30,297 nt of DNA, taken from the IMG/VR virus record IMGVR_UViG_3300032053_006351, positions 1-30,297 of that record. One strand, 5' to 3'. A program made the position numbers and the translations under genes. This DNA comes from a virus. The first letter of the stretch is position 1, and every line of letters begins with the position of its first letter. Positions 1,772 to 25,952 of the stretch are shown piece after piece. The notes beneath the pieces are model-generated. The model worked only from the letters and a program-made list of their open reading frames with translations, did no database searches and was not told where the DNA came from.

Positions 1772-1803
1772 TTTTTCTGCTTCAACATAAATACCTATAT
1801 TTG
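1772..1803 (+). promoter_or_regulatory. Promoter P1 for tRNA array 1 leader
   Basis: TTTTTCTG, exactly 16 nt, then TATATTTG (1796-1803). TATATTTG fits the Bacteroidetes housekeeping -7 consensus TAnnTTTG. The same arrangement and spacing recurs at 5261, 7410, 12886, 21120 and 24195. It would start the long leader RNA of tRNA array 1. Confidence 0.75.
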
Positions 1804-1833
1804 TATTGTTAAAGGTTTTAAAGATCTTTTAAG

Positions 1834-1884
1834 GGTTGCATACAGCATACTAAAACATTCAGCAAAAATGAAAAAAACGCAACC
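1834..1884 (+). other. Structured leader element, copy 1
   Basis: Closed by GGTTGC (1834-1839) and GCAACC (1879-1884), a 6-bp stem. Just inside the 5' arm is the segment TACAGCATA. A second copy with a compensatory stem change lies at 1946-1993. The run ATGAAAAAAACGCAACC inside it starts an 11-codon ORF that need not be used. It is transcribed from P1 upstream of the attenuator. I do not match it to a known riboswitch class. Confidence 0.55.
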
Positions 1885-1945
1885 TGAAAGATTTTTAAAA
1901 TAAATTTGAAACAAAAAGGTATATAAGAAGTAAAACATTAAATAA

Positions 1946-1993
1946 GGATTGCTTACAGCATAACAAATCTATTGAAAAGAAAAACCAGCATCC
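1946..1993 (+). other. Structured leader element, copy 2
   Basis: Homologous to the element at 1834. GGATTGC (1946-1952) pairs with GCATCC (1988-1993) with one bulged T, and the internal TACAGCATA is conserved. Position 3 of the stem is T-A in copy 1 and A-T in copy 2, a compensatory pair change, while single-stranded bases are kept and internal length varies. Both copies are followed by CCTGAA and a T5 run (ATTTTTAAA). Between the copies lies GAAACAAAAA and GGTATATAAG (1908-1927), a motif pair also found in the other two tRNA leaders. Confidence 0.55.
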
Positions 1994-2014
1994 TGAATTT
2001 TTAAATAAGAAACA

Positions 2015-2116
2015 ATGAACAAAGTAATTAACATATTCAACCCGCAGTTCCAGTTCCAGTTTGTGGTGCCGTTTATCGGCTCACCGGGCAATGTTATGTA
2101 CTTTGACGATATATAA
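2015..2116 (+). CDS. Leader peptide of tRNA array 1 attenuator, 33 aa
   Basis: Short ORF ending 64 bases before the first tRNA. Residues 8-20 read FNPQFQFQFVVPF: 12 of 13 are Phe, Pro, Gln or Val, and the tRNAs downstream are Pro, Phe, Pro, a Gln-like tRNA, Phe, Val and Val. Codons used are TTC/TTT, CCG, CAG and GTG. The codons Pro24-Gly25 (CCGGGC, 2084-2089) are the strand that can pair with the terminator's 5' arm. By analogy with trp, his and phe operon leaders, stalling in this codon run would let the antiterminator form. The peptide itself probably has no function beyond being translated. Confidence 0.85.
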   Translation: MNKVINIFNPQFQFQFVVPFIGSPGNVMYFDDI

Positions 2117-2167
2117 ATTATATTTGAAATTACAGAAAAGCCCGGCAGAAATGTTCGGGCTTTTTTT
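2065..2167 (+). terminator. Attenuator 1: hairpin 1:2, antiterminator strand and intrinsic terminator
   Basis: Hairpin 1:2 is GGTGCCG (2065-2071) with CGG-CT-CACC (2077-2085, two-base bulge). Antiterminator strand CCGGGC (2084-2089) is fully complementary to GCCCGG (2140-2145). The terminator is AAAAGCCCG (2136-2144) with CGGGCTTTT (2156-2164) plus three more T. Hairpin 1:2 shares two bases with the antiterminator strand, which in turn competes with the terminator stem. Thus free translation or none favours termination, and stalling at leader codons 8-20 favours read-through into the tRNA-Pro that starts 14 bases after the T-run. Confidence 0.8.
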
Positions 2168-2180
2168 ATTTTCAAAAATT

Positions 2181-2253
2181 CGGGGTGTGGCGCAGTTGGT
2201 AGCGCGCGTGCTTTGGGAGCATGAGGTCGCAGGTTCGAGCCCTGTCACCCCGA
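2181..2253 (+). tRNA. tRNA-Pro (anticodon TGG), first copy
   Basis: Canonical cloverleaf: acceptor CGGGGTG/CACCCCG, D arm GCGCAGTTGGTAGCGC, anticodon arm CGTGC-TTTGGGA-GCATG, T arm GCAGG-TTCGAGC-CCTGT, discriminator A. CCA is not encoded. First tRNA after attenuator 1; Pro codons occur three times in the leader peptide. Confidence 0.97.
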
Positions 2254-2268
2254 CGGTAAAATGGAAAT

Positions 2269-2342
2269 GCGGAAGTAGCTGAGTTGGTTCAAGCGCCAGA
2301 CTGAAAATCTGGAGTAGATCGGTTCGAGACCGATGTTTCGCA
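2269..2342 (+). tRNA. tRNA-Phe (anticodon GAA), first copy
   Basis: Acceptor GCGGAAG/GTTTCGC (one G-T pair and a G-G mismatch at the base), D loop with TTGG, anticodon arm CCAGA-CTGAAAA-TCTGG, T arm ATCGG-TTCGAGA-CCGAT. CCA not encoded. A second Phe tRNA of different sequence is at 2814. The 69-base spacer after it contains a 9-bp hairpin, GTTTTGTTT/AAACAAAAC (2360-2400), of unknown role. Confidence 0.93.
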
Positions 2343-2411
2343 CGATAGCAGAAGGAGTGGTTTTGTTTAAGCTGTTTGTTTGTCCCTTTGGAAACAAAAC
2401 AAATCGCAACA

Positions 2412-2487
2412 CGGGAATTGGGCTAATTGGTTAAGCCGCCACTTTTGGGAAGTGGACATCGTGCGAGTTCGAGTCTCGCATTCCCGA
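2412..2487 (+). tRNA. tRNA-Pro (anticodon TGG), second copy
   Basis: Acceptor CGGGAAT/ATTCCCG, D arm GGCTAATTGGTTAAGCC, anticodon arm CCACT-TTTGGGA-AGTGG, T arm GCGAG-TTCGAGT-CTCGC. It has the same anticodon as the tRNA at 2181 but a different body, so the pair is not a recent duplication. Confidence 0.93.
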
Positions 2488-2561
2488 CAAACAAAATAAA
2501 AATGATAAAAATGAAAAGTTGAAATTAAGACGAAATAATAGTCAGGATATTCATTAAGACA

Positions 2562-2720
2562 ATGGTAATCCTGTCGATCGTTGCTGTGACAAAAGGAAAA
2601 ATCAAATGCCGTTTGTATGAGGACGATGAAGAAACCTGCGTGTTAGACTTTAACAATGCGTTGAATAGAAATAGTAGAAAGAGGAAAAAAGTAGAAATAC
2701 ACTTTATTAAAAAGAAATAA
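2562..2720 (+). CDS. Small hypothetical protein, 52 aa
   Basis: ORF of 53 codons from ATG 2562 inside tRNA array 1. The product (MVILSIVAVTKGKIKCRLYE...) has a short hydrophobic start, an acidic middle (EDDEET) and a strongly basic tail (NRNSRKRKKVEIHFIKKK). No family recognised. It fills the otherwise unexplained gap between tRNA-Pro and the Gln-like tRNA. The 74 bases before it (2488-2561) hold nothing I can identify. Confidence 0.5.
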   Translation: MVILSIVAVTKGKIKCRLYEDDEETCVLDFNNALNRNSRKRKKVEIHFIKKK

Positions 2721-2728
2721 AGAAATAT

Positions 2729-2808
2729 CCGGGGAATGGTAAATCACACTTGGTGTGGTGGCAAATAGACGTGCACGACTATTGGAGCTTCGATTGCTTC
2801 GCCCTGGA
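2729..2808 (+). tRNA. Unusual tRNA, probably tRNA-Gln (anticodon TTG)
   Basis: Acceptor CCGGGGA/GCCCTGG (one G-T, one terminal mismatch) and a clear T arm GGAGC-TTCGATT-GCTTC. In place of a D arm there are only five bases (GGTAA) before the hairpin ATCAC-ACTTGGT-GTGGT, whose seven-base loop would give anticodon TTG, with C instead of T at position 33. A 24-base insert holding AATAG/CTATT then precedes the T arm. The Gln reading is supported indirectly by three CAG codons in the array leader peptide. It could instead be a degenerate tRNA. See the related odd tRNAs at 22669, 24416 and 25834. Confidence 0.5.
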
Positions 2809-2813
2809 CAAAT

Positions 2814-2886
2814 GTGACCGTAGCTCAGTTGGTAGAGCACTGCCCTGAAGAGGCAGGTGTCGCTGGTTCGAATCCAGCCGGTCACA
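2814..2886 (+). tRNA. tRNA-Phe (anticodon GAA), second copy
   Basis: Fully paired acceptor GTGACCG/CGGTCAC, D arm GCTCAGTTGGTAGAGC, anticodon arm CTGCC-CTGAAGA-GGCAG, T arm GCTGG-TTCGAAT-CCAGC. Same anticodon as 2269 but a different body and G at position 37. Confidence 0.96.
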
Positions 2887-2892
2887 CAACAT

Positions 2893-2967
2893 TGGAGTGT
2901 AGCTCAGTTGGTTCAGAGCAATTGCCTTACAAGCAATAGGTCAACGGTTCGAACCCGTTCACTCCAA
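2893..2967 (+). tRNA. tRNA-Val (anticodon TAC), first copy
   Basis: Acceptor TGGAGTG/CACTCCA, D arm GCTCAGTTGGTTCAGAGC, anticodon arm ATTGC-CTTACAA-GCAAT, T arm AACGG-TTCGAAC-CCGTT. It follows the preceding tRNA by six bases. Confidence 0.96.
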
Positions 2968-3023
2968 CATTTGAATCTTGAAAAAATCTGGCCAGAAATA
3001 ATTTTCAAGAAGTTCGATTGAAT

Positions 3024-3098
3024 TGCTGCTTAGCTCAGTTGGAAGAGCTCCGGATTTACATTCCGGGTATGCCGCAGGTTCGAACCCTGCAGTGGCAA
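3024..3098 (+). tRNA. tRNA-Val (anticodon TAC), second copy
   Basis: Acceptor TGCTGCT/AGTGGCA (two G-T pairs), D arm GCTCAGTTGGAAGAGC, anticodon arm CCGGA-TTTACAT-TCCGG, T arm GCAGG-TTCGAAC-CCTGC. Its 3' end is two bases before the ATG of the next protein gene, so tRNA processing must cut the mRNA immediately upstream of that start. Confidence 0.94.
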
Positions 3099-3100
3099 CT

Positions 3101-3286
3101 ATGAATGAGAGTAAATTGACAAATCAGCAATTCAAATTTATATCTGAATTGCTGTGGGGTGGAGTTCCCACAAATAGATTAGAAGCAGAAGAATCTGCTT
3201 TATTTAAAAGTAAAGCTCCAGAAATATTAAAAGAATATCCAATGTTGGATAAATCTTTTTTTGAGAAACATGTTAGTAAAAAATAG
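3101..3286 (+). CDS. Hypothetical protein, 61 aa
   Basis: I start it at ATG 3101; the longer frame to 3023 would run through the tRNA-Val gene. Product MNESKLTNQQFKFISELLWG... is small and largely helical-looking, Glu/Lys rich, ending FFEKHVSKK, with no known motif. It is the first protein gene after array 1. Because 3' processing of tRNA-Val would leave only two bases before the ATG, processed transcripts would be essentially leaderless for this gene. Confidence 0.7.
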   Translation: MNESKLTNQQFKFISELLWGGVPTNRLEAEESALFKSKAPEILKEYPMLDKSFFEKHVSKK

Positions 3287-3291
3287 AAATA

Positions 3292-3828
3292 ATGAAACCA
3301 ATTTATGTTGACGATTATGTCAAAGAAAAAATATTTGAAAAATTAAGAAACGAAGTTTCTTGGTTGAATAGAGAAGCTCCAAGAGATGAATGCTTCATGT
3401 CATACATTCCATTAGAATACACCTATGGAAAAGGATTTACAAGAACATATAACTCTTTAGAATTTAATGAAGCTGTAATTAAGATTATGGATAGATTAAA
3501 TTCTGAATTTGGTAGTGAATATAATGTATGCTTCTTAAATTATTACAAGAGTGATAAAGAACATTTAGGTTGGCATGCAGATGATTCTCCAGAAATGGAT
3601 ACAACTCACCCAATAGGAGTTGTATCATTTGGAGCAGAAAGATTCATCTGGGTTAAAAATAAGGACTATAAGGGAAACATTCCTGATGAAGATAAGTATT
3701 TATTAGGAGATGGTTCTTTGTTTATCATGCCTGCAGGATTTCAAATTGATAACTTGCACAAGATACCAAAGAATGATAAACCTTGTGGAGGAAGAATTAG
3801 CTTAACATTTAGAAAATTTATAAAATGA
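3292..3828 (+). CDS. AlkB-like 2-oxoglutarate/Fe(II) dioxygenase
   Basis: 178 aa, the size of a minimal AlkB domain. Seen: FLNYYKSDKEHLGWHADD with the iron ligands H95-x-D97, the third ligand H156 (NLHKIPK), and the 2-oxoglutarate-binding arginines in RISLTFR (R168, R174). The nucleotide-recognition segment SYIPLEYTYG is near residue 40. AlkB proteins oxidatively remove alkyl groups from DNA or RNA bases. A demethylase for viral nucleic acid or tRNA is plausible; with tRNA genes upstream and RNA ligase downstream, RNA as substrate deserves thought, but the sequence does not settle it. Overlaps the next gene by ATGA. Confidence 0.9.
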   Translation: MKPIYVDDYVKEKIFEKLRNEVSWLNREAPRDECFMSYIPLEYTYGKGFTRTYNSLEFNEAVIKIMDRLNSEFGSEYNVCFLNYYKSDKEHLGWHADDSPEMDTTHPIGVVSFGAERFIWVKNKDYKGNIPDEDKYLLGDGSLFIMPAGFQIDNLHKIPKNDKPCGGRISLTFRKFIK

Positions 3829-4469
3829 AAAAACTTAAAATAAAACAAACAGAAAAGCAGCGGGTATTCTATACGTCGGATACCCACTATGCTCACGCGA
3901 ATATATGTCGTGGTGTTTCCCGATGGGGAGACAAAGAAAACAGCACACGTGATTTCAGCACGATAGCAGAAATGAATAACGAGCTTGTAAATGCAATCAA
4001 CAGAACAGTGAAAGAGGATGATACTTTATTTCACATGGGCGACTGGTCATTTGGAAACATACGTGAGGTTGCAGAATTCAGACGTAGAATACATTGCAAA
4101 AACGTTCATTTGATCTATGGCAATCATGATGATGGAATCGAAGAGGATGAGGAACTACAAAATCTTTTCTCTTCAGTTCAGCATTACAAAGAGGTTGCAA
4201 TCGATGGAGATATGATTTGCTTGTTTCACTACAAGCAAACAATCTGGAATAAGAGTCATCGTGATGCATACCATTTGTACGGACATTCTCACTCAGGTGC
4301 AGAACACATGGTGATAGGAAGATCAATGGATGTTGGAGTTGACAATGCATTTAAGATGCTTGGAGAATACAGACCATTTTCACACGAAGAGATCTTGTAC
4401 TTCTTGAAAGGAAGAAAACAAAAAGCCGTTGATCACCACGGTGTTAAAGGAAGCGAAAACCACAAATGA
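3825..4469 (+). CDS. Calcineurin-like metallophosphoesterase
   Basis: 214 aa. The family motifs occur in order: SDTHYAH (D19, H21), MGDW (D73), YGNHDD (N100, H101), FHYKQ (H135) and GHSHSG (H154, H156), which together bind two metals. This is the phage-type single-domain phosphoesterase with a short N-terminal basic extension and a variable C-terminal tail. The substrate is unknown. It is joined by 4-base overlaps both to the AlkB gene before it and to the RNA ligase after it. That suggests an RNA end-healing role beside the ligase, analogous to polynucleotide 3'-phosphatase with ligase in T4, but this is inference. Confidence 0.9.
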   Translation: MKKLKIKQTEKQRVFYTSDTHYAHANICRGVSRWGDKENSTRDFSTIAEMNNELVNAINRTVKEDDTLFHMGDWSFGNIREVAEFRRRIHCKNVHLIYGNHDDGIEEDEELQNLFSSVQHYKEVAIDGDMICLFHYKQTIWNKSHRDAYHLYGHSHSGAEHMVIGRSMDVGVDNAFKMLGEYRPFSHEEILYFLKGRKQKAVDHHGVKGSENHK

Positions 4470-5092
4470 AACAGTATCCATCCATAGCGCATTATAAAGA
4501 TTCCATACTTGGAACTCCTTTAGTTGCATTTAATAAACTGGATGGAAGCAATCTTCGTTTTGAATGGGACAAGAAGAAAGGTTGGAATAAGTTTGGCACA
4601 AGAAGAACTATGTTAAGCAAGGGAGATCCACTCTATATTGGAGTGGATCTTTTCTTAGACAAATACTCGGAAGGTCTTACTACTATTTTTAAGGAAGATA
4701 AAGATTTCAGAGGAATAAGAGAGGTAGTTGTATTTTGTGAATTATTTGGACCTAATAGTTTCTATGGACAACATGATTTTGAAAACATGGAAGTAGTTTT
4801 GCTTGATGTTAATCCAATGACAAAGGGGTTTATCCCACCAAGAGAATTCATAAAGAAGTTTGGTCATTTGGGAATACCTGAAATAGTATTTGATGGAATG
4901 ATAACAAATGACGATGTGAGGAATGTGAGATATTCAAAAGAATTAAAAGAAGGTGTTGTATGTAAATGGATGAATAACAAACATCTTCAAACTTGCAAGA
5001 TTAAAACAAACAATTGGTTAAACACATTAAAGGAAAAATATGGCCAAGAGGCTATAGATGAGGAATTTAAAAATGAAATAATGACTGTGTAG
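4466..5092 (+). CDS. RNA ligase (nucleotidyltransferase family)
   Basis: 208 aa, with the covalent nucleotidyltransferase motifs: motif I KLDGSN with the AMP-accepting K24, FGTRRTM (about 43-49), motif III VVFCELFG (about 88-95), motif IV KEGVVCKW (about 161-168) and motif V CKIKTNNWL (K178/K180). It is the size of the adenylyltransferase domain alone, without a C-terminal domain as in T4 Rnl2. It joins RNA ends with ATP; the classic phage role is resealing tRNAs cut by host anticodon nucleases. Its stop TAG lies at T8-A9-G10 of tRNA-Val(GAC), so gene and tRNA overlap by ten bases, and tRNA maturation would destroy the mRNA 3' end. Confidence 0.92.
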   Translation: MKQYPSIAHYKDSILGTPLVAFNKLDGSNLRFEWDKKKGWNKFGTRRTMLSKGDPLYIGVDLFLDKYSEGLTTIFKEDKDFRGIREVVVFCELFGPNSFYGQHDFENMEVVLLDVNPMTKGFIPPREFIKKFGHLGIPEIVFDGMITNDDVRNVRYSKELKEGVVCKWMNNKHLQTCKIKTNNWLNTLKEKYGQEAIDEEFKNEIMTV

Positions 5093-5156: not shown

Positions 5157-5161
5157 CACGT

Positions 5162-5215: not shown

Positions 5216-5229
5216 CGGAATTTGCAAAC

Positions 5230-8364: not shown

Positions 8365-8851
8365 AAATGCGTGGCACGCAAAGCTGTATAAATTTACATA
8401 CAAATCTGAATTACCTAAAAACTTATGTCCATATTTCTGGAAATTTGTGGCTTCTGTTATCTTGTATATTCCAAATCTTATTATGCAATTACCGATGCTT
8501 ATAGTATTGTTATTTGATAAAGACAACACTAACACCAAATGCAATGAAAGAAGACTATATAGTGGAGTCATTTATCTATGTACAGCAATACTTTTGATTT
8601 ATGGCTTTGTTACTTTTCATTGGATTAAAATGGTATTTAATTGTTATTCTTATAATGTTGGTGCTGCGACTGGCGGAGGTATTATACATTTATTTTTATT
8701 TGGAGTAGCAATGTTTTCATTATTTGATCATATTAAAACATCAATGTCAAGTAAAAAAGAAGAAGAAAAAACACCTAATTTAATAGTGGAATTTGTTAAA
8801 GCAAAATATAACAAATACTGTCCTCAAATTGAATGGAAAGAAACCAAATAA
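8351..8851 (+). CDS. Predicted membrane protein, 166 aa
   Basis: Three or four hydrophobic segments are seen: FWKFVASVILYIPNLIMQLP running into MLIVLLF (about 29-55), VIYLCTAILLIYGFV (about 73-87), and GGGIIHLFLFGVAMFSLF (about 108-125). A charged tail with KKEEEKTP follows. The N-terminal WHAKLYKFTY...LPKNLCPYFW precedes the first segment. No enzyme motif. It sits between the broken secreted-protein gene and MetRS; its stop overlaps the MetRS start by one base. Confidence 0.75.
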   Translation: MIANKNAWHAKLYKFTYKSELPKNLCPYFWKFVASVILYIPNLIMQLPMLIVLLFDKDNTNTKCNERRLYSGVIYLCTAILLIYGFVTFHWIKMVFNCYSYNVGAATGGGIIHLFLFGVAMFSLFDHIKTSMSSKKEEEKTPNLIVEFVKAKYNKYCPQIEWKETK

Positions 8852-10260
8852 TGGAATACGACAAATACATATCAACAACACTTCCATACGCGAACTCAGT
8901 TCCGCACATTGGTCATGCACTTGAATTTATTCAAGCTGATGCTCTTGTTCATTACTTCAAAGATGTACAGAAAGAAAAGGTATTCTTTAATATAGGAATA
9001 GATGAGCATGGATTAAAGGTTTATAACAAAGCCAAAGAACTTGAAATAGAACCAGAAAAATATACTGAGATGTTAGCATTGAGATGGGCTTCATTTTGTA
9101 TGATGTTCCAAATTGAATTTGATAACTTTTACAGAACTACCAGTCTTGTTCATCGTGCAAAGGTGCAAAGATTTTGGAGAGCTTCTTTGGAAAGAGGAGA
9201 CCTTTACAAGAAGGCTTATTCTGGAAAGTACTGCACAGGTTGTGAAGCATTTAAAACAGAATCTGATTTAGTAGATGGAAAATGTCCTGATCATAATGTT
9301 GAACCAACTTTAATAGAAGAAGAGAATTGGTTCTTCAGAGTTTCTAAACATAAAGGTTTATTGCATGGTTGGTTAAAAAACAATCCTGATTTTCTATCAC
9401 CACAATCTAAAACACCTGAATTGGAAAACATCATACTTCAATCAGAAGATATTTCTGTATCAAGATTAAAGAAGAATGTTCCATGGGGGATACCAGTTCC
9501 AGATGACGACGACCAAGTCATATATGTTTGGTTTGAAGCTTTGTTGAACTACATCTTCGCTGTTGAAGATTTTAATTCAGAACACTTTATTCAAATATGC
9601 GGTCCTGACAATTTAAGATTTCAAGGATCTCTTTTCCAATCAATACTGTTGTCTGCTAATTTAAAGAATACTCAGAAATTATTGGTGCATGGAACAGTAG
9701 TCGATGCAGAAGGAAAGAAGATGTCAAAATCTCTTGGTAATGTAATAGACCCAATTCAACAATTAAATAAGTTTGGATTGGATGCTGTAAGATATTATGC
9801 TCTTGCTGGTTTATCTACTTATGGAAATGGTGCATGGTCTGAAGATGATTTAGTTAAGAAATACAATAATGATTTAGCAGATAATTATGGAAATTTAATT
9901 GCTAGAGTTCTGCATCTAATAGACACAAAGCAAGTTGAAATAACAGGGCCTGATCAAGAAACAGAATCTATTGTATCAACTCTTGTTGGCAATGCAAAAT
10001 ACTATTGGGAGAAGTTCGAGATTAATACTGCCATAAATGAGACTAATGTTTTGGTAAAAGCTGGCAACAAATATATCAATGATCATAAGCCGTGGGAAAA
10101 AGATGCACCCTATGAGCAAATTTTAAATAACTTGTACTATTTATTATGTGAAACAAATAAATTATATTTGCCTGTTATTTCAGCACAAACTTGGTTACTG
10201 ATAGAAGAATCATTGAAATTAAAAAAGAAAATAATTATATTTCCAAAAATAACAATATGA
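8851..10260 (+). CDS. metG: Methionyl-tRNA synthetase
   Basis: 469 aa from ATG 8851, which overlaps the previous stop (TAATG); the longer frame from 8833 adds six residues coded inside the membrane-protein gene. It charges tRNA-Met with methionine. Seen: HIGH (19-22), a CTGC-(13)-CPDH zinc knuckle (C128, C131, C145, H148) in the connective peptide, VPWGIPVPDDDDQVIYVWFEALLNY, GPDNLRFQG, and KMSKS (290-294). The anticodon-binding helical domain follows, and the protein stops without the C-terminal tRNA-binding (EMAP-like) domain found in many bacterial enzymes. No tRNA-Met is visible in the window. The stop overlaps the next gene by ATGA. Confidence 0.96.
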   Translation: MEYDKYISTTLPYANSVPHIGHALEFIQADALVHYFKDVQKEKVFFNIGIDEHGLKVYNKAKELEIEPEKYTEMLALRWASFCMMFQIEFDNFYRTTSLVHRAKVQRFWRASLERGDLYKKAYSGKYCTGCEAFKTESDLVDGKCPDHNVEPTLIEEENWFFRVSKHKGLLHGWLKNNPDFLSPQSKTPELENIILQSEDISVSRLKKNVPWGIPVPDDDDQVIYVWFEALLNYIFAVEDFNSEHFIQICGPDNLRFQGSLFQSILLSANLKNTQKLLVHGTVVDAEGKKMSKSLGNVIDPIQQLNKFGLDAVRYYALAGLSTYGNGAWSEDDLVKKYNNDLADNYGNLIARVLHLIDTKQVEITGPDQETESIVSTLVGNAKYYWEKFEINTAINETNVLVKAGNKYINDHKPWEKDAPYEQILNNLYYLLCETNKLYLPVISAQTWLLIEESLKLKKKIIIFPKITI

Positions 10261-11217: not shown

Positions 11218-11889
11218 ATGGAAACAGGAGACTATTTAATTGGAACAAATCCAGACAAAGGCAAAACTGGCAAAGAAAATGCAGTCAGAATTATTAAAGT
11301 TAAAAGTATAACTAAGGCTGAAGAAGAACACGAAGAAGATACAGAGGAGACTTTGTATTACGCTCTTAGTTCTAACAGCTTAAGAATCTACAAAGTAAAT
11401 GAAGAAGATTTCCAAAAGGTTTCTCCGAGTGATGAACGAATTGTAGATTTCAAGAAAAAAATCGAAGAGGGACAAAGATGTAAATCATATCTTGGATATG
11501 ATTTCGGTGAAGTTATACCAACCAATGTTAATGGTTATAAAGAAATGGTTGGAGATTTTATAGATGCTGATGATGAAGATGAACTTGAATCAGGTCACCT
11601 ATTATTTTTGGGAACAGAACCAGACACTGATGATGCTGAAGCAGAGCACTTAGTATGTTTATGTTGGGTATTAAAAGACACGAATGAGAAAAAAGATGGA
11701 ACAGCAATGGACGAATCTTCAATAAGTAAAACAGATTTTGTTAAACGCATGTTGGTTCCAATGGAAGAAGAATCAAAAAGAATCACAATCCATTACATTA
11801 ACAAAGATGGTATTAAAACTAAACAAGCTGTTAATGATGCAACTGAAATTAAAGATATGAAGGAAGAACTTTATAGAATGAACAACTAA
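11218..11889 (+). CDS. Acidic hypothetical protein, 223 aa
   Basis: Very acidic (EEEHEEDTEET near 38-48; DADDEDELESGH near 116-127; DTDDAEAEH). The start METGDYLIGTNPDKGKTGKENAVRIIKVKSI resembles a small SH3-like beta barrel. The last 40 residues (RITIHYINKDGIKTKQAV...) loosely resemble the end of the protein at 20226 (FTISYVDADGKTNKVTV...), so the two may share a small C-terminal module. No known family. Confidence 0.75.
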   Translation: METGDYLIGTNPDKGKTGKENAVRIIKVKSITKAEEEHEEDTEETLYYALSSNSLRIYKVNEEDFQKVSPSDERIVDFKKKIEEGQRCKSYLGYDFGEVIPTNVNGYKEMVGDFIDADDEDELESGHLLFLGTEPDTDDAEAEHLVCLCWVLKDTNEKKDGTAMDESSISKTDFVKRMLVPMEEESKRITIHYINKDGIKTKQAVNDATEIKDMKEELYRMNN

Positions 11890-12317
11890 TGGAAAGGGTA
11901 GCAAAGCAGGTCATCGTAATGAGGACCAAATTTAAAGATGGCAAAACCATTAGAAAAGGAAAGATGATTGCACAGGGAGCTCATGCATCCCTTGCAGCTG
12001 TCTTAAGACATTCTAAAGGAGATCAAGATAGCATTACGATTTACTTGGATGAAGAAGACAGTGCTATCAGAAGTTGGCTTCGTGGAAGATTCACTAAGAT
12101 ATGTGTACAAGCTTCTGCTACAACATCTGAAGAACAGGAAAAGGAAATAATAGGATTGATTGAAGCCGCAAAAGAAAAAGGAATTCCATGTTATGCTTTA
12201 ATAACAGATGCAGGTTTAACAGAATTTAATGGAGAACCAACGATAACATGTTGTGCAATTGGACCGGCTTGGTCAAATGAAATCGATGAATTAACTGGAA
12301 AATTAGGATTACTATGA
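11889..12317 (+). CDS. Peptidyl-tRNA hydrolase, PTH2 family
   Basis: 142 aa, full length for the archaeal/eukaryotic-type enzyme that frees peptides from peptidyl-tRNA after ribosome stalling or drop-off. Seen: KQVIVMRTKF, the signature GKMIAQGAHAS (24-34), ICVQASA (71-77), ALITDAGLTEF (103-113) and TCCAIGPAWSNEIDELTG (about 120-137). It is unrelated to the usual bacterial Pth. With MetRS, GluRS, tRNAs and RNA ligase it forms part of a phage translation kit; recycling peptidyl-tRNA would matter most when ribosomes stall for lack of charged tRNA, the condition the tRNA leaders here seem to sense. Starts on TAATG. Confidence 0.92.
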   Translation: MERVAKQVIVMRTKFKDGKTIRKGKMIAQGAHASLAAVLRHSKGDQDSITIYLDEEDSAIRSWLRGRFTKICVQASATTSEEQEKEIIGLIEAAKEKGIPCYALITDAGLTEFNGEPTITCCAIGPAWSNEIDELTGKLGLL

Positions 12318-14428: not shown

Positions 14429-15427
14429 ATGATTTTAGAATTAGCAATAGGAGACGCTTATGGAAGACCGTTTGAGTTTAATACTCCGGAATTCATTGAA
14501 GCAAATAATGATTTGTCTGGTTACAAACACCGCGAAAAAGAAGAAGTAACTGGAATTGGAACTTATACTGACGACACTCAAATGTCTATGGCTGTTGCAG
14601 AACAAATTTTATCTGGTCTTCCTGGAACTCAAGTAAGATTTGCAGCACACTTTGTTACTGCTTATAAAAGAGATCCACACAAAGGATATAGCAGAAGAAT
14701 AACAAATGCTTTAGAAGAATCTAAAGCTAATTTACCATTTGAGTTTATTTTAAAAGCAAAACAAGCCGGAGCAAATAGTAATGGAAGTGTTATGCGTGCT
14801 GTTCCTCTTGGAATGATGCATGATCCAAAAGAGATAATGCACAGAAGCATTGTTCAGACTTCTACATCTCATGGACACATTGATGCGGTTAATTCAGCAT
14901 GTGCTGTTTCTTTGACTGCACATTTCTTCTATCATTTATATCCACGTTTAGATGGAAAAACATTAATAGAAAAATTCCAGATATACCAGGAATGGATGAG
15001 AAGCTTTATGGGAATTATTTACAGCGACATATTTGAATCTTATTCTCTTAGAGCTGACATGAAGTTAAATGACCCATTATTATGCGATGCAAAAACTACA
15101 GCATCTCTTGCAATCAAATTAGCATGGGGAATGAAGAAAGATGTTATCATTCATGATATGAGAACTACTGCAAAAAAGATTTTAAAGACTGCCATTGCAA
15201 TTGGTGGTGATGTTGATTCATCTGCTTCTATTGCACTTGGTTTATACAGCTTACGTCCTGATGCTGTTATGGATCTTCCACAAGTGCTTTATGATAATTT
15301 AGAGAACGGAGAATTTGGAAGAGATTATTTAATAGCAATGGATGCTGAACTTACAAATAAATTTCCACGAATTGTAAAAGAAGAAGAGAAAGCATCGAGT
15401 ACAGATTTAACCGATATAATTGTTTAA
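14429..15427 (+). CDS. ADP-ribosylglycohydrolase (DraG-like)
   Basis: 332 aa. The dinuclear-metal motifs are all present: GDAYGRPFEF (8-17), TYTDDTQMS (T47, D48, D49, T50), SNGSVMRAVPLG (118-128), TSTSHGHIDAVNSA and the C-terminal AIGGDVDSSASIALG (G259-G260-D261, D263). The family removes ADP-ribose from arginine and other groups, or cleaves related ADP-ribose compounds. In a phage it could reverse host ADP-ribosylation used in defence, or undo the phage's own modification of host proteins; no ADP-ribosyltransferase is seen nearby. The VDSS in place of the usual TDTI is a mild variation. Confidence 0.9.
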   Translation: MILELAIGDAYGRPFEFNTPEFIEANNDLSGYKHREKEEVTGIGTYTDDTQMSMAVAEQILSGLPGTQVRFAAHFVTAYKRDPHKGYSRRITNALEESKANLPFEFILKAKQAGANSNGSVMRAVPLGMMHDPKEIMHRSIVQTSTSHGHIDAVNSACAVSLTAHFFYHLYPRLDGKTLIEKFQIYQEWMRSFMGIIYSDIFESYSLRADMKLNDPLLCDAKTTASLAIKLAWGMKKDVIIHDMRTTAKKILKTAIAIGGDVDSSASIALGLYSLRPDAVMDLPQVLYDNLENGEFGRDYLIAMDAELTNKFPRIVKEEEKASSTDLTDIIV

Positions 15428-21119: not shown

Positions 21120-21151
21120 TTTTTTAGTTTCGATAATTGTTTCTATATTTG
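21120..21151 (+). promoter_or_regulatory. Promoter P5 for tRNA array 2 leader
   Basis: TTTTTTAG (21120-21127), 16 nt, TATATTTG (21144-21151). P5 and P6 share the upstream box TTTTTTAGTTT. Downstream GAAACAAAAC (21154-21163) and GGTATATAG (21175-21183) recur in the other two tRNA leaders. Confidence 0.8.
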
Positions 21152-21194
21152 TTGAAACAAAACGAAAAGATAAAGGTATATAGTTTATAACACA

Positions 21195-21278
21195 ATGAAA
21201 AACAGGAACCACATACATGAGCATCAGATATGGCACGCAACAGTGTCGAGCTTGGGTATTGCCTGTACTTTCCATTAA
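21195..21278 (+). CDS. Leader peptide of tRNA array 2 attenuator, 27 aa
   Basis: Residues 6-14 read HIHEHQIWH: 7 of 9 are His, Ile or Trp, and the array behind encodes tRNA-Trp, a Trp-anticodon tRNA, tRNA-His and tRNA-Ile. The two Ile codons in this run are ATA, the codon read by the array's tRNA-Ile(TAT), and ATA is otherwise a codon easily made limiting. Codons Ser18-Gly21 form the antiterminator strand. The same logic as in the leaders at 2015 and 24271. Confidence 0.87.
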   Translation: MKNRNHIHEHQIWHATVSSLGIACTFH

Positions 21279-21334
21279 TAAAGTATTTAGGTTTTAAAAC
21301 TGACCCAAGACTCGAAAGAGTGCTTGGGTTTTTT
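21232..21334 (+). terminator. Attenuator 2: hairpin 1:2, antiterminator strand and terminator
   Basis: Hairpin 1:2: GGCAC (21232-21236)/GTGTC (21243-21247). Antiterminator strand CGAGCTTGGGT (21247-21257) pairs with ACCCAAG-A-CTCG (21303-21314): 11 bp with one bulged A. Terminator ACCCAAG-A-CTC-GAAA-GAG-TG-CTTGGGT (21303-21329) with a T-rich tail, ending 8-14 bases before tRNA-Trp. The upstream strand repeats the terminator's own 3' arm (CTTGGGT), a direct sign of mutually exclusive structures. Confidence 0.85.
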
Positions 21335-21348: not shown

Positions 21349-21419
21349 ACGGATGTAGTTCAGTGGTAGAATAGCGGTCTCCAAAACCGTTGACGGGGGT
21401 TCGAATCCCTCCATCCGTG
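21349..21419 (+). tRNA. tRNA-Trp (anticodon CCA)
   Basis: Acceptor ACGGATG/CATCCGT, D arm GTTCAGTGGTAGAAT, anticodon arm GCGGT-CTCCAAA-ACCGT, short variable TTGAC, T arm GGGGG-TTCGAAT-CCCTC, discriminator G as usual for Trp. First tRNA behind attenuator 2. Confidence 0.95.
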
Positions 21420-21426
21420 CAAACAT

Positions 21427-21508
21427 ACGTCAGTGGTCGAGTGGTCAAAGGCAACGGTCTCCAAAACCGTGTCGAAAGATGCCGCAGGTTCGAATCCTGC
21501 CTGACGTG
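21427..21508 (+). tRNA. Type II tRNA with Trp anticodon (CCA)
   Basis: Acceptor ACGTCAG/CTGACGT, D arm GTCGAGTGGTCAAAGGC of the Ser/Leu style, anticodon arm ACGGT-CTCCAAA-ACCGT identical in loop to the tRNA-Trp just upstream, a 15-base variable arm, and T arm GCAGG-TTCGAAT-CCTGC. Normal bacterial Trp tRNAs have a short variable loop, so this looks like a Ser- or Leu-like body with a Trp anticodon. The amino acid attached is uncertain; the discriminator G would suit Trp or Ser. Confidence 0.85.
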
Positions 21509-21529
21509 CAAAACAAAAAAGAAGAAAAC

Positions 21530-21874
21530 ATGAATGCAAATGATGTTAAGAAAGAGCTCTATAAGAGCAAGGTGAATGCTAAGTTAGCAGAGGTTGTTAA
21601 TGGAACAATGTATTATATAGTACAGTTGGAAGATGGCTTATACCGTTTCCCTATTGAAACAGTTGATCCAGTGAATAAAACATTATACAAGCTTGATGCA
21701 AAGACTCAAACCAGTCCGAGTATTGCTTTAACTTACACGAAAGTTGAAGAGCATTATTATACACTTTCTGCTGATTTAGGAACTACCACATTTTCAGCAG
21801 AGATGAAAGCTTCCGATTTGAACAGATGGATTTCAAAATCCATTGACAAAGGAGAATTTATAAAGATCTCTTAA
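21530..21874 (+). CDS. Hypothetical protein, 114 aa, inside tRNA array 2
   Basis: Start at ATG 21530; the frame to 21479 runs into the tRNA. MNANDVKKELYKSKVNAKLAEVVNGTMYYIVQLEDGLYRFPIETVD... is a soluble alpha/beta protein; the end MKASDLNRWISKSIDKGEFIKIS is helical. No family recognised. It is embedded between tRNA genes and so would be under attenuator 2. Confidence 0.75.
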   Translation: MNANDVKKELYKSKVNAKLAEVVNGTMYYIVQLEDGLYRFPIETVDPVNKTLYKLDAKTQTSPSIALTYTKVEEHYYTLSADLGTTTFSAEMKASDLNRWISKSIDKGEFIKIS

Positions 21875-21881
21875 TTTATAT

Positions 21882-21968
21882 GTGGATTGTAGCCGGTAAA
21901 GGCAGCCGACCAGCTTGTGGCGCTGGAATGATTTCAATCTAATGCGGGTTCGAATCCCGTCTTTCCAC
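21882..21968 (+). tRNA. tRNA-His (anticodon GTG), unusual D and variable regions
   Basis: The His hallmark G-1 opposite C73 is present (21882, 21968). Acceptor TGGATTG/CTTTCCA has two T-T mismatches. Anticodon arm CCAGC-TTGTGGC-GCTGG and T arm GCGGG-TTCGAAT-CCCGT are clear. The D arm has only GCC/GGC, followed by an extra AGCCGA, and the variable region is 17 bases long (GATT/AATC). Identity is supported by five His codons in the array leader. Confidence 0.8.
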
Positions 21969-21970
21969 CT

Positions 21971-22014
21971 GCGGATATTTTGTACCGCGTTTCTGATATA
22001 TAAAAGAAACGCGG
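21971..22014 (+). promoter_or_regulatory. Conserved hairpin element before homing endonuclease 1
   Basis: GCGG-ATATTTTGTA-CCGC followed by the 9-bp stem CCGCGTTTC (21985-21993)/GAAACGCGG (22006-22014) around TGATATATAAAA. The same layout with different stem bases stands before the second endonuclease gene (25160-25188). The loop TATATAAAA resembles a T4-style late promoter, and the hairpin ends seven bases before the ATG, so it could hide the start region in longer transcripts. Confidence 0.6.
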
Positions 22015-22021
22015 ATACAAA

Positions 22022-22666
22022 ATGCCAAGAAAACAAAAGAAGTATCACTATTTGTACAAGACTACAAATTTGATAAATAATAAATTTTATGTTGGAATGC
22101 ACTCTAGTAATGATTTAGAAGATGGATATTTGGGTAGTGGTAAGTATTTATGGAATTCAATCCGTAAACATGGTGCAGAAAATTTTACACGAGAAATTTT
22201 AGAGTTTTTTGAAAATAGAAAAGACCTAGTAGAACGAGAAAAAAATCTAATTAATGAAGATTTTATAAAAGATCCAATGTGCATGAATCTTAAACCTGGA
22301 GGAAGTGGGGGATGGTCAGTAGAGCAGCAGGTTATAAATCAGTATAATGGTAGGATAAAAATAAAAATACTAAAAGAAACAGATCCTGCATGGGTAGAAC
22401 GATTTTTTAAAAATATGTCAGATGGCCAGAAAAATGCGTATAAAAATGGGAGAATACCAACTCCAGTTGATTGGACTGGTAAAACACATTCAGACGAGTC
22501 AAAAAAAGAAATGAGTAGAATAGCTAAATTGAGAACAGGTGATAAAAATAGTTCATTTGGTACTTGCTGGATTCATAATATGGAAGAAAGTAAAAAAATT
22601 AAACAAAGTGAATTAGAACAATACTTAAGTAATAATTGGTTAAAAGGGAGAAAAATGAAATTTTAA
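22022..22666 (+). CDS. GIY-YIG homing endonuclease 1 (Seg-like)
   Basis: 214 aa. GIY-YIG nuclease domain in the first 90 residues: YHYLYKTTNLINNKFYVGMHSS (Y10, Y12, Y23, G25), GYLGSGKYL and EREKNLINEDF with the catalytic Glu near 73. A linker follows, then NUMOD3 DNA-binding repeats (GKTHSDESKKEMSRIAKL, about 151-168) and a terminal block GTCWIHN...YLSNNWLKGRK. Paralogue of the gene at 25195; the nuclease halves are close, the linkers differ. It is free-standing between tRNA-His and tRNA-Ile(TAT), ending two bases before the latter, so tRNA loci are the likely homing sites. Confidence 0.93.
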   Translation: MPRKQKKYHYLYKTTNLINNKFYVGMHSSNDLEDGYLGSGKYLWNSIRKHGAENFTREILEFFENRKDLVEREKNLINEDFIKDPMCMNLKPGGSGGWSVEQQVINQYNGRIKIKILKETDPAWVERFFKNMSDGQKNAYKNGRIPTPVDWTGKTHSDESKKEMSRIAKLRTGDKNSSFGTCWIHNMEESKKIKQSELEQYLSNNWLKGRKMKF

Positions 22667-22668
22667 AT

Positions 22669-22758
22669 GGGCAAGTACCGATGGAGTCTTATAAACTCTA
22701 TAACCGTAGCTGGTCGTTGCGATAACTTCAAACGTGAGTTCAAATCTCACCTTGCCTA
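22669..22758 (+). tRNA. Unusual tRNA-Ile (anticodon TAT), reduced D region
   Basis: Acceptor GGGCAAG/CTTGCCT, T8-A9, then only five bases (CCGAT) before the anticodon arm GGAGT-CTTATAA-ACTCT. A 34-base insert with the hairpin CGTAGC-TGGTC-GTTGCG precedes T arm GTGAG-TTCAAAT-CTCAC. Anticodon TAT reads AUA, matching the ATA codons of leader 2. The insert shares the pattern yGTArYTGG..GyTGyrA with the tRNAs at 24416 and 25834. Confidence 0.8.
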
Positions 22759-22760
22759 CT

Positions 22761-22790
22761 AAAACCCGATCATGAAAATGGTCGGGTTTT
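22761..22790 (+). terminator. Intrinsic terminator of tRNA array 2
   Basis: AAAACCCGATCAT (22761-22773)/ATGGTCGGGTTTT (22778-22790), 13 bp with one T-G pair, GAAA tetraloop, followed by T. It starts two bases after the tRNA-Ile discriminator. Confidence 0.93.
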
Positions 22791-22817
22791 TCATTTATCC
22801 TAATGGATATATAGTAC

Positions 22818-23345: not shown

Positions 23346-23346
23346 T

Positions 23347-23876: not shown

Positions 23877-23878
23877 TC

Positions 23879-24193: not shown

Positions 24194-24194
24194 A

Positions 24195-24226
24195 TTTTTT
24201 AGTTTAAATAACATTGCCTACATTTG
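24195..24226 (+). promoter_or_regulatory. Promoter P6 for tRNA array 3 leader
   Basis: TTTTTTAG (24195-24202), 16 nt, TACATTTG (24219-24226). GAAACAAAAG (24237-24246) and GGTATATAAG (24255-24264) follow, as in the other tRNA leaders. Confidence 0.8.
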
Positions 24227-24270
24227 TAATGTTAAAGAAACAAAAGATAAAAAAGGTATATAAGATACAA

Positions 24271-24348
24271 ATGAAGAATAACACAAATATTATTAGCAGA
24301 ATTATTAGACGTAGAAATACATCTAACGACCTGGATAGTATCGTGTAA
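24271..24348 (+). CDS. Leader peptide of tRNA array 3 attenuator, 25 aa
   Basis: Residues 7-15 read IISRIIRRR: 8 of 9 are Ile or Arg. The array behind holds two Ile(GAT) and four Arg tRNAs and nothing else. Codons are ATT for Ile and AGA, AGA, CGT, AGA for Arg. Asn19-Leu21 codons are part of the antiterminator strand. This is the cleanest of the three matches. Confidence 0.9.
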   Translation: MKNNTNIISRIIRRRNTSNDLDSIV

Positions 24349-24404
24349 CTTCAATAAGAATTAATACGAATTTAAAACCCAGGACGTTGTTCTGGGTTTT
24401 TTTG
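24305..24404 (+). terminator. Attenuator 3: hairpin 1:2, antiterminator strand and terminator
   Basis: Hairpin 1:2: TTAGA (24305-24309)/TCTAA (24322-24326). Antiterminator strand AACGACCTGG (24325-24334) pairs with CCAGGACGTT (24379-24388) at 9 of 10 positions. Terminator AAAACCCAGGAC (24374-24385)/GTTCTGGGTTTT (24389-24400), 12 bp with one wobble and a T-rich tail; tRNA-Ile starts at 24416. The Arg codons lie in hairpin 1:2, so a ribosome stalled there melts it and frees the antiterminator strand. Confidence 0.87.
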
Positions 24405-24415
24405 TTTTTATACCT

Positions 24416-24496
24416 CGGCACATACTCAGCCGATCCTGATAAGATCGAGAACTGTAATTGGTGTTGCAAATATGGGTTCAAATCCCATTGTGCCGA
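24416..24496 (+). tRNA. Unusual tRNA-Ile (anticodon GAT), reduced D region
   Basis: Acceptor CGGCACA/TGTGCCG, T8-A9, six bases CTCAGC in place of a D arm, anticodon arm CGATC-CTGATAA-GATCG, then a 24-base insert with TGTAAT-TGGT-GTTGCA, T arm ATGGG-TTCAAAT-CCCAT. The next gene is a canonical tRNA with the same anticodon loop. Confidence 0.8.
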
Positions 24497-24501
24497 CATA
24501 C

Positions 24502-24575
24502 TGGAATGTAGCTCAGTTGGTTAGAGCATATCTCTGATAAGGATAAGGTCGGCGGTTCGAATCCGCCCATTCCGA
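24502..24575 (+). tRNA. tRNA-Ile (anticodon GAT), canonical
   Basis: Acceptor TGGAATG/CATTCCG, D arm GCTCAGTTGGTTAGAGC, anticodon arm TATCT-CTGATAA-GGATA, T arm GGCGG-TTCGAAT-CCGCC. Loop identical to that of the unusual tRNA-Ile upstream. Confidence 0.95.
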
Positions 24576-24621
24576 CCGCGGTCATTTTGTACCTGAAATG
24601 GTTGGGTAAAAGGAAGAACTT
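24576..24621 (+). other. Spacer element without endonuclease gene
   Basis: After tRNA-Ile comes GCGGTCATTTTGTACCTGAAA, nearly the same start as the elements that precede both endonuclease genes (GG, A/T-rich ATTTTGTA, CC), but the GATATATAAAA hairpin and the gene are absent. It may be an empty or decayed insertion site. Confidence 0.45.
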
Positions 24622-24695
24622 GCTTGCATAGCTCAACTGGATAGAGCACCTCACTACGGATGAGGAGGTTTAGAGTTCGAATCTCTATGCGAGTA
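24622..24695 (+). tRNA. tRNA-Arg (anticodon ACG)
   Basis: Acceptor GCTTGCA/TGCGAGT, D arm GCTCAACTGGATAGAGC, anticodon arm CCTCA-CTACGGA-TGAGG, T arm TAGAG-TTCGAAT-CTCTA. Reads CGU (and CGC/CGA if A34 is deaminated by host TadA). Confidence 0.95.
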
Positions 24696-24700
24696 CAAAT

Positions 24701-24782
24701 GGTCGGGTGCCAGATTGGATATTGGAACAGTTTCCTAAACTGTGAGTAACATCAACTGCAGGTTCGAATCCTGTCTCGATCA
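24701..24782 (+). tRNA. tRNA-Arg (anticodon CCT), long variable region
   Basis: Acceptor GGTCGGG/CTCGATC, D arm CCAG-ATTGGATA-TTGG, anticodon arm ACAGT-TTCCTAA-ACTGT, 14-base variable region GAGTAACATCAACT, T arm GCAGG-TTCGAAT-CCTGT. The D arm is normal, but the variable region is longer than in ordinary tRNA-Arg. Confidence 0.88.
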
Positions 24783-24792
24783 CAAAAAATAA

Positions 24793-25068
24793 ATGGAAAT
24801 GGAAAAATTAGTATACAGTCATTTTTGGGGTGACGAAGGATGTTCAGGAACTTCATATATTGCTTTTGAATATGAGAGCAAAGAGAAGTTTGTATTTGAC
24901 ATATTAGAGAAGTATAAAGATCAAATATGGGAACATGAATGGACTAAGGTATTGGTCTTTTTTGAGAATGATGTATATCTCGATAAGTATGAGATCGAAG
25001 GAATAGAACACAACGTGCAAACACTTGATCAATGGTTTGAAAGAGAGAAGATATTTGTGATATTGTAA
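24793..25068 (+). CDS. Hypothetical protein, 91 aa, inside tRNA array 3
   Basis: MEMEKLVYSHFWGDEGCSGTSYIAFEYESKEKFVFDILEKYKDQI... is an acidic, aromatic-rich soluble protein. GDEGCSGTSYIAFEYES followed by a helix could be a small beta-alpha unit. No family recognised. It stands between tRNA-Arg(CCT) and tRNA-Arg(TCG), which starts two bases after its stop codon, so it would be co-regulated by attenuator 3 like the 114-aa gene of array 2. Confidence 0.7.
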   Translation: MEMEKLVYSHFWGDEGCSGTSYIAFEYESKEKFVFDILEKYKDQIWEHEWTKVLVFFENDVYLDKYEIEGIEHNVQTLDQWFEREKIFVIL

Positions 25069-25069
25069 T

Positions 25070-25142
25070 GCCTACATAGCTCAGGGGACAGAGCATCGGT
25101 CTTCGGAACCGAGTGGCGGGAGTTCGAATCTCTCTGTGGGTT
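25070..25142 (+). tRNA. tRNA-Arg (anticodon TCG)
   Basis: Acceptor GCCTACA/TGTGGGT, D arm GCTCAGGGGACAGAGC, anticodon arm TCGGT-CTTCGGA-ACCGA, T arm GGGAG-TTCGAAT-CTCTC. Reads CGA and CGG. Confidence 0.93.
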
Positions 25143-25146
25143 CACC

Positions 25147-25188
25147 GGCTATTTTGTACCTGAATTTAGATATATAAAATAAATTCAG
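25147..25188 (+). promoter_or_regulatory. Conserved hairpin element before homing endonuclease 2
   Basis: GGCTATTTTGTACC followed by CTGAATTTA (25160-25168)/TAAATTCAG (25180-25188) around GATATATAAAA. Compared with 21985-22014 the loop is kept and the 9-bp stem bases are changed on both sides. The ATG is six bases after the stem. Confidence 0.6.
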
Positions 25189-25194
25189 TGCAAG

Positions 25195-25833
25195 ATGCCA
25201 AGACGACAAAAGCAATATCACTTCATCTATAAAACGACGAATGTGATAAATGAAAAATTTTATGTTGGGATGCACTCAACAGATGATTTGAATGACGGAT
25301 ATTTAGGATCTGGCAAAAGATTAAAATATTCCATTAATAAGTATGGAAAGGAAAATTTCATATTTGAAATTTTAGAGTTCTTTGAAGATAGAAAAACGTT
25401 AATTGAGCGAGAGGAAAATCTCATTAACGAGGATTTTATTAAAAATCCATTGTGCATGAACTTAATGAAAGGAGGGACAGGAGGATTACTTTCAGAAGCC
25501 CATCACTTAAAAATGAGAGAAGGCGCTTCTAAATTTGCAAAAAAACAATGGGAAGATGATGAATTTCGTGTATTTAAAAATAGTTTAACGTCAGTTCAAT
25601 TTAGAAATTATAATTTGAATATTAAAACAAAATTCGATAATTTTAAAGGAAAGACACATAGTAAAGAATCAAAAATAAAAATGAGTAAAAAAGCTCAGCA
25701 GAGAATTGGTGATAAAAATTCTCAGTTTGGAACATGCTGGATTTATAAGAATAAAGAAAATAAAAAAATCCAAAAAGAAAAATTGAATGATTGGATTAAA
25801 TTGGGATGGATTAAAGGTAGAAAAATAAAATAA
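25195..25833 (+). CDS. GIY-YIG homing endonuclease 2 (Seg-like)
   Basis: 212 aa, paralogue of the gene at 22022: YHFIYKTTNVINEKFYVGMHST, GYLGSGKRLKYSINKYG, EREENLINEDF with the catalytic Glu, then a different linker (EAHHLKMREGASKFAKKQWEDDE), NUMOD3 GKTHSKESKIKMSKKAQQR and GTCWIYKNKENKKI...LGWIKGRK at the end. It lies free-standing between tRNA-Arg(TCG) and tRNA-Arg(TCT), with its stop directly before the latter. Lack of tRNA disruption fits an intergenic homing enzyme of the T4 Seg kind rather than an intron enzyme. Confidence 0.93.
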   Translation: MPRRQKQYHFIYKTTNVINEKFYVGMHSTDDLNDGYLGSGKRLKYSINKYGKENFIFEILEFFEDRKTLIEREENLINEDFIKNPLCMNLMKGGTGGLLSEAHHLKMREGASKFAKKQWEDDEFRVFKNSLTSVQFRNYNLNIKTKFDNFKGKTHSKESKIKMSKKAQQRIGDKNSQFGTCWIYKNKENKKIQKEKLNDWIKLGWIKGRKIK

Positions 25834-25913
25834 GCAGGTGTAGTCGAGGAAGTTTTCTAAACTTTTAAACGTAATTGGAGCTGTAAATGGGGGTTCGAAT
25901 CCCTCCACCTGTA
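25834..25913 (+). tRNA. Unusual tRNA-Arg (anticodon TCT), reduced D region
   Basis: Acceptor GCAGGTG/CACCTGT, T8-A9, six bases GTCGAG, anticodon arm GAAGT-TTTCTAA-ACTTT, 23-base insert containing CGTAATTGGAGCTGTAAAT, T arm GGGGG-TTCGAAT-CCCTC. The insert aligns with that of tRNA-Ile at 24416 (TGTAATTGGTGTTGCAAAT). A canonical tRNA-Arg(TCT) exists at 30048. Confidence 0.8.
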
Positions 25914-25917
25914 CAGC

Positions 25918-25952
25918 AAAAACCATAATAGAATTACGCTATTATGGTTTTT
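25918..25952 (+). terminator. Intrinsic terminator of tRNA array 3
   Basis: 14-bp perfect stem AAAAACCATAATAG (25918-25931)/CTATTATGGTTTTT (25939-25952), 7-base loop. The 84 bases after it contain no gene and no promoter of the P1-P6 kind that I can see, although a promoter for the CobS-like gene is expected there. Confidence 0.92.

Follow-up and report, generated by a model that had tools for sequence, protein, structure and literature searches.

Leader peptides, terminators and candidate attenuators in front of tRNA arrays of huge phages

Three leader and tRNA array units in one virus record

The virus record IMGVR_UViG_3300032053_006351, a stretch of 30,297 bases here called the window, contains 17 tRNAs according to ARAGORN and Rfam. 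They form three arrays, plus a lone Val (5083) and a lone Arg (30048) that have no leader in front. Each array is preceded by a short leader open reading frame (ORF) and an intrinsic terminator (Table 1), and here we ask how these tRNA arrays, and similar ones in other phages, are likely to be controlled.

A preliminary description, made from the sequence alone, had reported the order leader ORF, intrinsic terminator, tRNA array and had read it as attenuation. We find this order at exactly the same positions in all three loci, and its counts of matching residues in the leader runs (12 of 13, 7 of 9 and 8 of 9) are correct when recounted. A dense run of cognate codons in a leader, which is what attenuation demands, is present. 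Also present in all three is a segment complementary to the 5' arm of the terminator, overlapping or near each leader stop codon. A "Gln-like" tRNA listed for array 1 (about 2727-2811) is not supported: Rfam does not recover it as a tRNA, also with the cutoff relaxed to E=10.

The degenerate tRNA-Ile(GAU) that opens array 3 was read by eye; its homologue in the closest relative scores 37 bits. A consensus scan for promoters and terminators failed on terminator 1 and was therefore replaced by our own hairpin search.

Table 1. Positions of leaders, switch elements, tRNA arrays and selected other genes in the window
Feature	Position	Strand	Content	Support
-7-like box, leader 1	1796-1803	+	TATATTTG; Bacteroidetes type TAnnTTTG	consensus as known to the authors
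Tandem RNA element, about 55 nt	1833-1890, 1946-1999	+	GGxTGC-(A/T)(T)ACAGCAtaac...GCAxCC-TGAA, between promoter and leader 1	hairpin or H-type pseudoknot-like
Leader ORF 1	2015-2116	+	peptide MNKVINIFNPQFQFQFVVPFIGSPGNVMYFDDI, then stop; control run FNPQFQFQFVVPF (Phe/Pro/Val, plus Gln)	
Antiterminator 5' strand 1	2083-2114	+	within final codons	duplex -17.7 kcal/mol, p 0.01
Intrinsic terminator 1	2134-2166	+	U tail	-16.6 kcal/mol
tRNA array 1	2181-3099	+	Pro(UGG) Phe(GAA) Pro(UGG) Phe(GAA) Val(UAC) Val(UAC)	ARAGORN, Rfam
-7-like box, leader 2	21144-21151	+	TATATTTG	
Leader ORF 2	21195-21278	+	peptide MKNRNHIHEHQIWHATVSSLGIACTFH, then stop; control run HIHEHQIWH, its Ile codons ATA	
Antiterminator 5' strand 2	21247-21266	+		-17.4 kcal/mol
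Intrinsic terminator 2	21303-21329	+		-15.4 kcal/mol
tRNA array 2	21349-22758	+	Trp(CCA) Trp(CCA) His(GUG), GIY-YIG ORF, Ile(UAU) 22669-22758	ARAGORN, Rfam; Ile anticodon by eye
-7-like box, leader 3	24219-24226	+	TACATTTG	
Leader ORF 3	24271-24348	+	peptide MKNNTNIISRIIRRRNTSNDLDSIV, then stop; control run IISRIIRRR, its Ile codons all ATT	
Antiterminator 5' strand 3	24329-24347	+	within final codons	-12.6 kcal/mol, p 0.003
Intrinsic terminator 3	24374-24400	+		-14.8 kcal/mol
tRNA array 3	24416-25913	+	degenerate Ile(GAU) 24416-24498, Ile(GAU) Arg(ACG) Arg(CCU) Arg(UCG), GIY-YIG ORF, Arg(UCU) 25834-25913	ARAGORN, Rfam; first and last anticodons by eye
GIY-YIG endonuclease-like ORF	22022-22666		within array 2	
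GIY-YIG endonuclease-like ORF	25195-25833		within array 3	
GluRS	48-1052			
RNA ligase	4466-5092			
MetRS	8833-10260			
Peptidyl-tRNA hydrolase PTH2	11889-12317			
ADP-ribosylglycohydrolase	14429-15427			

Leader codons follow the content of the arrays

Relatives of the window were found by UvsW and gp32 scans together with tRNA searches, after which the array regions were fetched. The closest is IMGVR_UViG_3300028558_000016 (G001, 482 kb), whose AAA protein is 88% identical to that of the window. It has 62 tRNA matches in separate clusters, with seven multi-tRNA arrays. A matching leader and a terminator were predicted beforehand for these arrays and then found at 7 of 7. The leader runs are ITTGTTTTTKTGKGKPM ahead of Met/Thr/Lys/Gly/Asn (array A), ADCADE ahead of Asp/Cys/Glu/Ala (B), LSLSLSLSLSLS ahead of Leu/Ser (C), NNNNQQQYQQNNY ahead of Asn/Gln/Tyr (D), PQFQFVVPF ahead of Pro/Phe/Val (E), HIHKHQIWH ahead of Trp/His/Ile (F) and ITRIIRIRRR ahead of Ile/Arg (G). 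Jointly, the seven arrays and leaders cover all 20 amino acids, and the true pairing of leaders with arrays ranks best among all 5040 (7!) permutations.

The same anatomy, with different array make-up and correspondingly different leaders, is seen in the relatives G002, G012, G017, G026 and G027. It also occurs in the published uncultured huge phages LR756500, LR756504, LR756502 and LR756501, where for instance MTTSFQQQQQQQINRTD stands ahead of four Gln tRNAs, LSLCLSLSLSL ahead of Leu/Ser/Cys and KKQQYKQYQPQYK ahead of Tyr/Gln/Lys. Among cultured phages, matching leaders are found in Salicola SCTP-2 (four leaders), Caulobacter CcrColossus, Agrobacterium Atu_ph07 and Bacillus phage G. The leaders of the last two are annotated as ordinary hypothetical proteins (339118-339246, AUZ95228.1, in Atu_ph07 and 58381-58515, gp86, in phage G). 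In total, the covariation of leaders with array content holds for at least 10 huge phages placed in the UvsW tree, to which the cultured phages add four further lineages. This is what the preliminary description had proposed to look for in related phages, and the case that would have spoken against it, leaders unrelated to the arrays, did not occur.

To quantify the match, 40 leader/array pairs were picked automatically by a fixed rule, a few false-looking ones included, with array limits set by simple gap rules. Their match score is 132, compared with 3 +/- 9 for permuted pairs, and none of 100,000 permutations is as high. When permutation is restricted to pairs within a phage the score is 111 versus 9 +/- 14, again reached by 0 of 100,000. 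The pairs are not fully independent, and homologous leaders were dropped in stricter tests: 41 non-redundant pairs score 132.9 against 1.9 +/- 8.9 (0/100,000 permutations). For the seven leaders of cultured phages, no other of the 5040 permutations does as well as the true pairing.

Further, the match extends partly to the isoacceptor. Here we used the cases where the tRNAs of an array serve a single codon box for a given amino acid. Of the 50 Ile leader codons, 43 can be read by the Ile tRNA of the same array (null 26; 0 of 20,000 shuffles), while 22/25 Leu codons (P 0.00015) and 21/29 Arg codons (P 0.026) fall in the box of the array. With homologues removed the P values are 0.00005 for Ile, 0.001 for Leu and 0.044 for Arg, and a simpler coverage test on G001 and G012 pooled gives 0.007. 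The pattern is most easily seen for isoleucine, which in both the window and G001 is divided over two arrays: control runs with ATA as Ile codon precede tRNA-Ile(UAU) and those with ATT precede tRNA-Ile(GAU). Across phages, ATT/ATC leader codons pair with tRNA-Ile(GAU) and ATA with tRNA-Ile(UAU). The array tRNAs read the codons of their leaders, partly by isoacceptor, and the genes under control are thus ones that would relieve the shortage that is sensed.

The isoacceptor match bears on what the signal would be. The same switch might respond to amino-acid starvation, the phage answering a low amino-acid supply; the anatomy is identical to that of biosynthetic attenuators, and a stalled ribosome is blind to why charged tRNA is missing. 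However, the regulated tRNAs supply no amino acids, and starvation would not require codons that follow the isoacceptor, as they do for Ile (ATA versus ATT/ATC) and for the Leu and Arg boxes. We regard this explanation as unlikely. Because the leader codons follow the isoacceptor, the sensed quantity would be tRNA supply rather than amino-acid supply, and the codon data favour tRNA shortage as the signal.

The device is not universal among phages with tRNA arrays. Leader-bearing phages are scattered across deep branches of the UvsW tree, and one clade of this tree keeps the arrays and has no leaders, some of its arrays being headed by a tmRNA-like sequence. At two loci (L215 and L222, in records G020 and G031) such a sequence stands ahead of the tRNA arrays in place of a leader; the clade lost its leaders or never had them. 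The arrays of G010, G020, G031, G041, G054, G055 and LR756508 were examined and set aside as having no convincing leaders; those picked automatically in G010 look like chance, and in this group some arrays are headed by a tmRNA or a tmRNA-like sequence. In the controls T4, T5, FelixO1, GAP32, XacN1 and phiCbK there is no matching leader and nearly always no terminator ahead of the array, while KVP40 and CBB have one weak hairpin each, with a non-matching ORF. Tenacibaculum phage PTm1 and Bacteroides phage BS162P1 gave no tRNA match.

Competing structures and the proposed switch

Each leader has, in its final codons or around its stop codon, a strand with complementarity to the terminator's 5' arm. 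Over 19 leaders this antiterminator overlaps the arm by 9-16 nt, and the 3' end of the strand lies at a median of 3 nt beyond the start of the stop codon. When the duplex is compared with dinucleotide shuffles, 30 of 40 leaders have p<=0.05 and 23 have p<=0.01; the same test on 126 ordinary terminators from G001 and G002 yields 6 and 2, respectively. In the cultured phages p<=0.05 is obtained for 6 of 7 leaders. A terminator between leader and tRNAs, and an antiterminator that excludes it, are both there. All three terminators of the window carry a U tail. The folding of competing structures had been suggested in the preliminary description, and the structures are present above chance.

The response to a ribosome was studied by folding 20 leaders. 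When the ribosome is halted within the run, 20/20 form the antiterminator before the 3' arm of the terminator exists; when it sits at the stop codon, 0/20 do so. In this model the antiterminator strand would be free upon a stall in the run and masked at termination, the latter partly by construction.

The leader, its match to the array by amino acid and partly by isoacceptor, the terminator, the antiterminator, their geometry and the covariation over diverged phages argue strongly, at the level of sequence, for control of each array by ribosome-mediated attenuation of transcription, in a multivalent version of the trp/his/ilv type. We give this a probability of about 0.88. The reading of the preliminary description is thus borne out by the leader/array covariation, by competing structures above chance and by isoacceptor-matched codons. 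From the same features we infer that the leader is translated, that ribosomes stall in it and that read-through responds to the stall.

In the proposed mechanism, the polymerase would transcribe a short leader ORF rich in codons of the downstream tRNAs. If the sensed tRNAs are charged and plentiful, the ribosome would run through to the stop codon, a position shared with the antiterminator strand; the terminator would then fold and the array would stay untranscribed. A shortage of just one sensed tRNA would be enough to stall the ribosome in the run; the antiterminator strand would then pair with the emerging 5' arm of the terminator, and transcription would proceed into the array. Read-through would replenish exactly the scarce tRNAs, and the loop would be self-limiting because these products speed up the leader ribosome. 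Its purpose is presumably an adequate tRNA pool in the face of host tRNA decay, of cleavage of host tRNAs by defence or of shifts in the codon demand of the phage.

Several results weigh against attenuation or leave part of it unaccounted for. The three Gln codons of leader 1 have no cognate tRNA in the array and are unexplained, Ser shows no isoacceptor signal and is not informative, and some arrays inside leader-bearing phages have no leader. Phage G has the peptide match and no detectable antiterminator (p 0.80). The 0/20 at the stop codon arises largely because the ribosome covers the antiterminator strand. At equilibrium most leaders favour the terminator over the antiterminator, also when the ribosome is stalled, and the switch would therefore have to be kinetic, as trp attenuation is generally held to be. 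Finally, E. coli trpL, used as a positive control, fails the shuffle test (z -0.3); the test is therefore not discriminating and no proof of function.

A related possibility is that leader and terminator are real and that read-through is set by the timing of translation, for example by host translation shut-off or a phage antiterminator factor, cognate codons only fine-tuning the speed of the ribosome. A general slowing would also suffice where, as in many leaders, almost all amino acids of a large array are represented, and leaders folded with no ribosome can still form the antiterminator in about 80% of cases before synthesis of the 3' arm. However, there would then be no need to give each array a separate leader with a narrow codon set of its own, as seen seven times in G001, or to match isoacceptors, and we find this alternative quite improbable. 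That the short ORFs encode functional small proteins or arose by chance, the terminators closing an upstream unit and the tRNA match being incidental, has next to no probability: despite the hypothetical-gene annotations in phage G and Atu_ph07, it conflicts with the permutation tests, the covariation with differing array make-up, the rarity of antiterminators at control terminators (6/126) and the lack of any NCBIfam family match for ten leader peptides.

Taking attenuation as the preferred reading, a wider picture appears somewhat more probable than its opposite. Huge phages may carry a multi-channel, isoacceptor-resolved sensor of the tRNA pool, in which independent attenuators jointly cover up to 20 amino acids, each acting as a logical OR over a few tRNAs, and rebuild precisely those tRNAs that the host destroys or lacks. 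Its spread over phages of Bacteroidetes-like, alphaproteobacterial, gammaproteobacterial and Bacillus hosts would point to repeated origin or to movement between phages.

Relation to known systems and genomic context

The units resemble the enteric trp, his, thr, leu and ilv attenuators in having a leader ORF with cognate codons, an intrinsic terminator, an alternative antiterminator and a stop codon that lets the finishing ribosome mask the antiterminator strand. The ilv and thr leaders are also multivalent. Unlike the enteric attenuators, the phage leaders regulate tRNA arrays, occur several per genome, jointly sense up to 20 amino acids and have codons that follow the isoacceptor. The Rfam Trp, His, Leu and Thr leader families reach 14.8-18.0 bits, below their thresholds of 41-55. 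T-box riboswitches, mostly of Firmicutes, likewise respond to tRNA charging through a terminator/antiterminator choice, but they recognise uncharged tRNA by direct binding and lack a leader peptide; neither the window nor 130 kb of related loci contains a match to their covariance model at the gathering score.

Phage tRNAs make up for tRNAs lost to anticodon nucleases or retron effectors (PMC10264068, PMC11555353), and in one case a phage tRNA-Tyr is reported to be expressed from a strong promoter (PMC11555353). A text search of these two papers finds no mention of a leader or attenuator. As a likeness to such defence-countering tRNAs, the window also encodes an RNA ligase and a peptidyl-tRNA hydrolase. 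The huge-phage paper counts tRNAs and, by text search, does not mention leaders, attenuation or terminators. The CcrColossus record annotates a predicted terminator ahead of the array, and the corresponding paper states that Rfam gave no functional RNA besides tRNAs. No earlier description of leader-controlled phage tRNA arrays was found in the open-access literature searched; subscription papers and preprints were outside this scope, and absence is not proof. The type of mechanism is classical; the literature found does not describe it for phage tRNA arrays.

Why phages carry tRNAs, for codon compensation or for evasion of defence, has been debated for more than 50 years. If the leaders work as proposed, they spell out in codons which tRNA shortages each array answers, and the purpose of an array becomes directly testable, partly in cultured phages of laboratory hosts (CcrColossus in Caulobacter crescentus and phage G in Bacillus megaterium). 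Attenuation, familiar from textbooks as a device of amino-acid operons, would then extend to viral tRNA supply, and the leaders would offer ready multivalent reporters of tRNA shortage.

A TAnnTTTG box, the -7 consensus of Bacteroidetes, lies ahead of nearly all leaders in the window and its relatives, which suggests a Bacteroidetes host. Between the -7 box and each leader ORF of the window there is a GGTATATA box (1918-1925, 21175-21182 and 24255-24262), its only three copies there; AGATATATA variants precede most leaders of the relatives. The tandem RNA element of leader 1 recurs three times in G001, each time in the leader region of a tRNA array (E or F), and neither sequence has it outside such regions. 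It has a sub-threshold Rfam resemblance to Dictyostelium class I RNA.

The GIY-YIG ORFs within arrays 2 and 3 recall segB within the tRNA cluster of T4. Together, GluRS, MetRS, the RNA ligase, PTH2 and the ADP-ribosylglycohydrolase fit, without proving, the picture of a phage managing its tRNA pool after damage or repairing it. tRNAs with a CTA anticodon (amber suppressors) occur at G001:358021-358092 and at L051:277 and G001:374278, and also in LR756501 and L256. As such tRNAs are present and just 27 of 549 predicted G001 ORFs end in TAG, recoding of TAG is possible.

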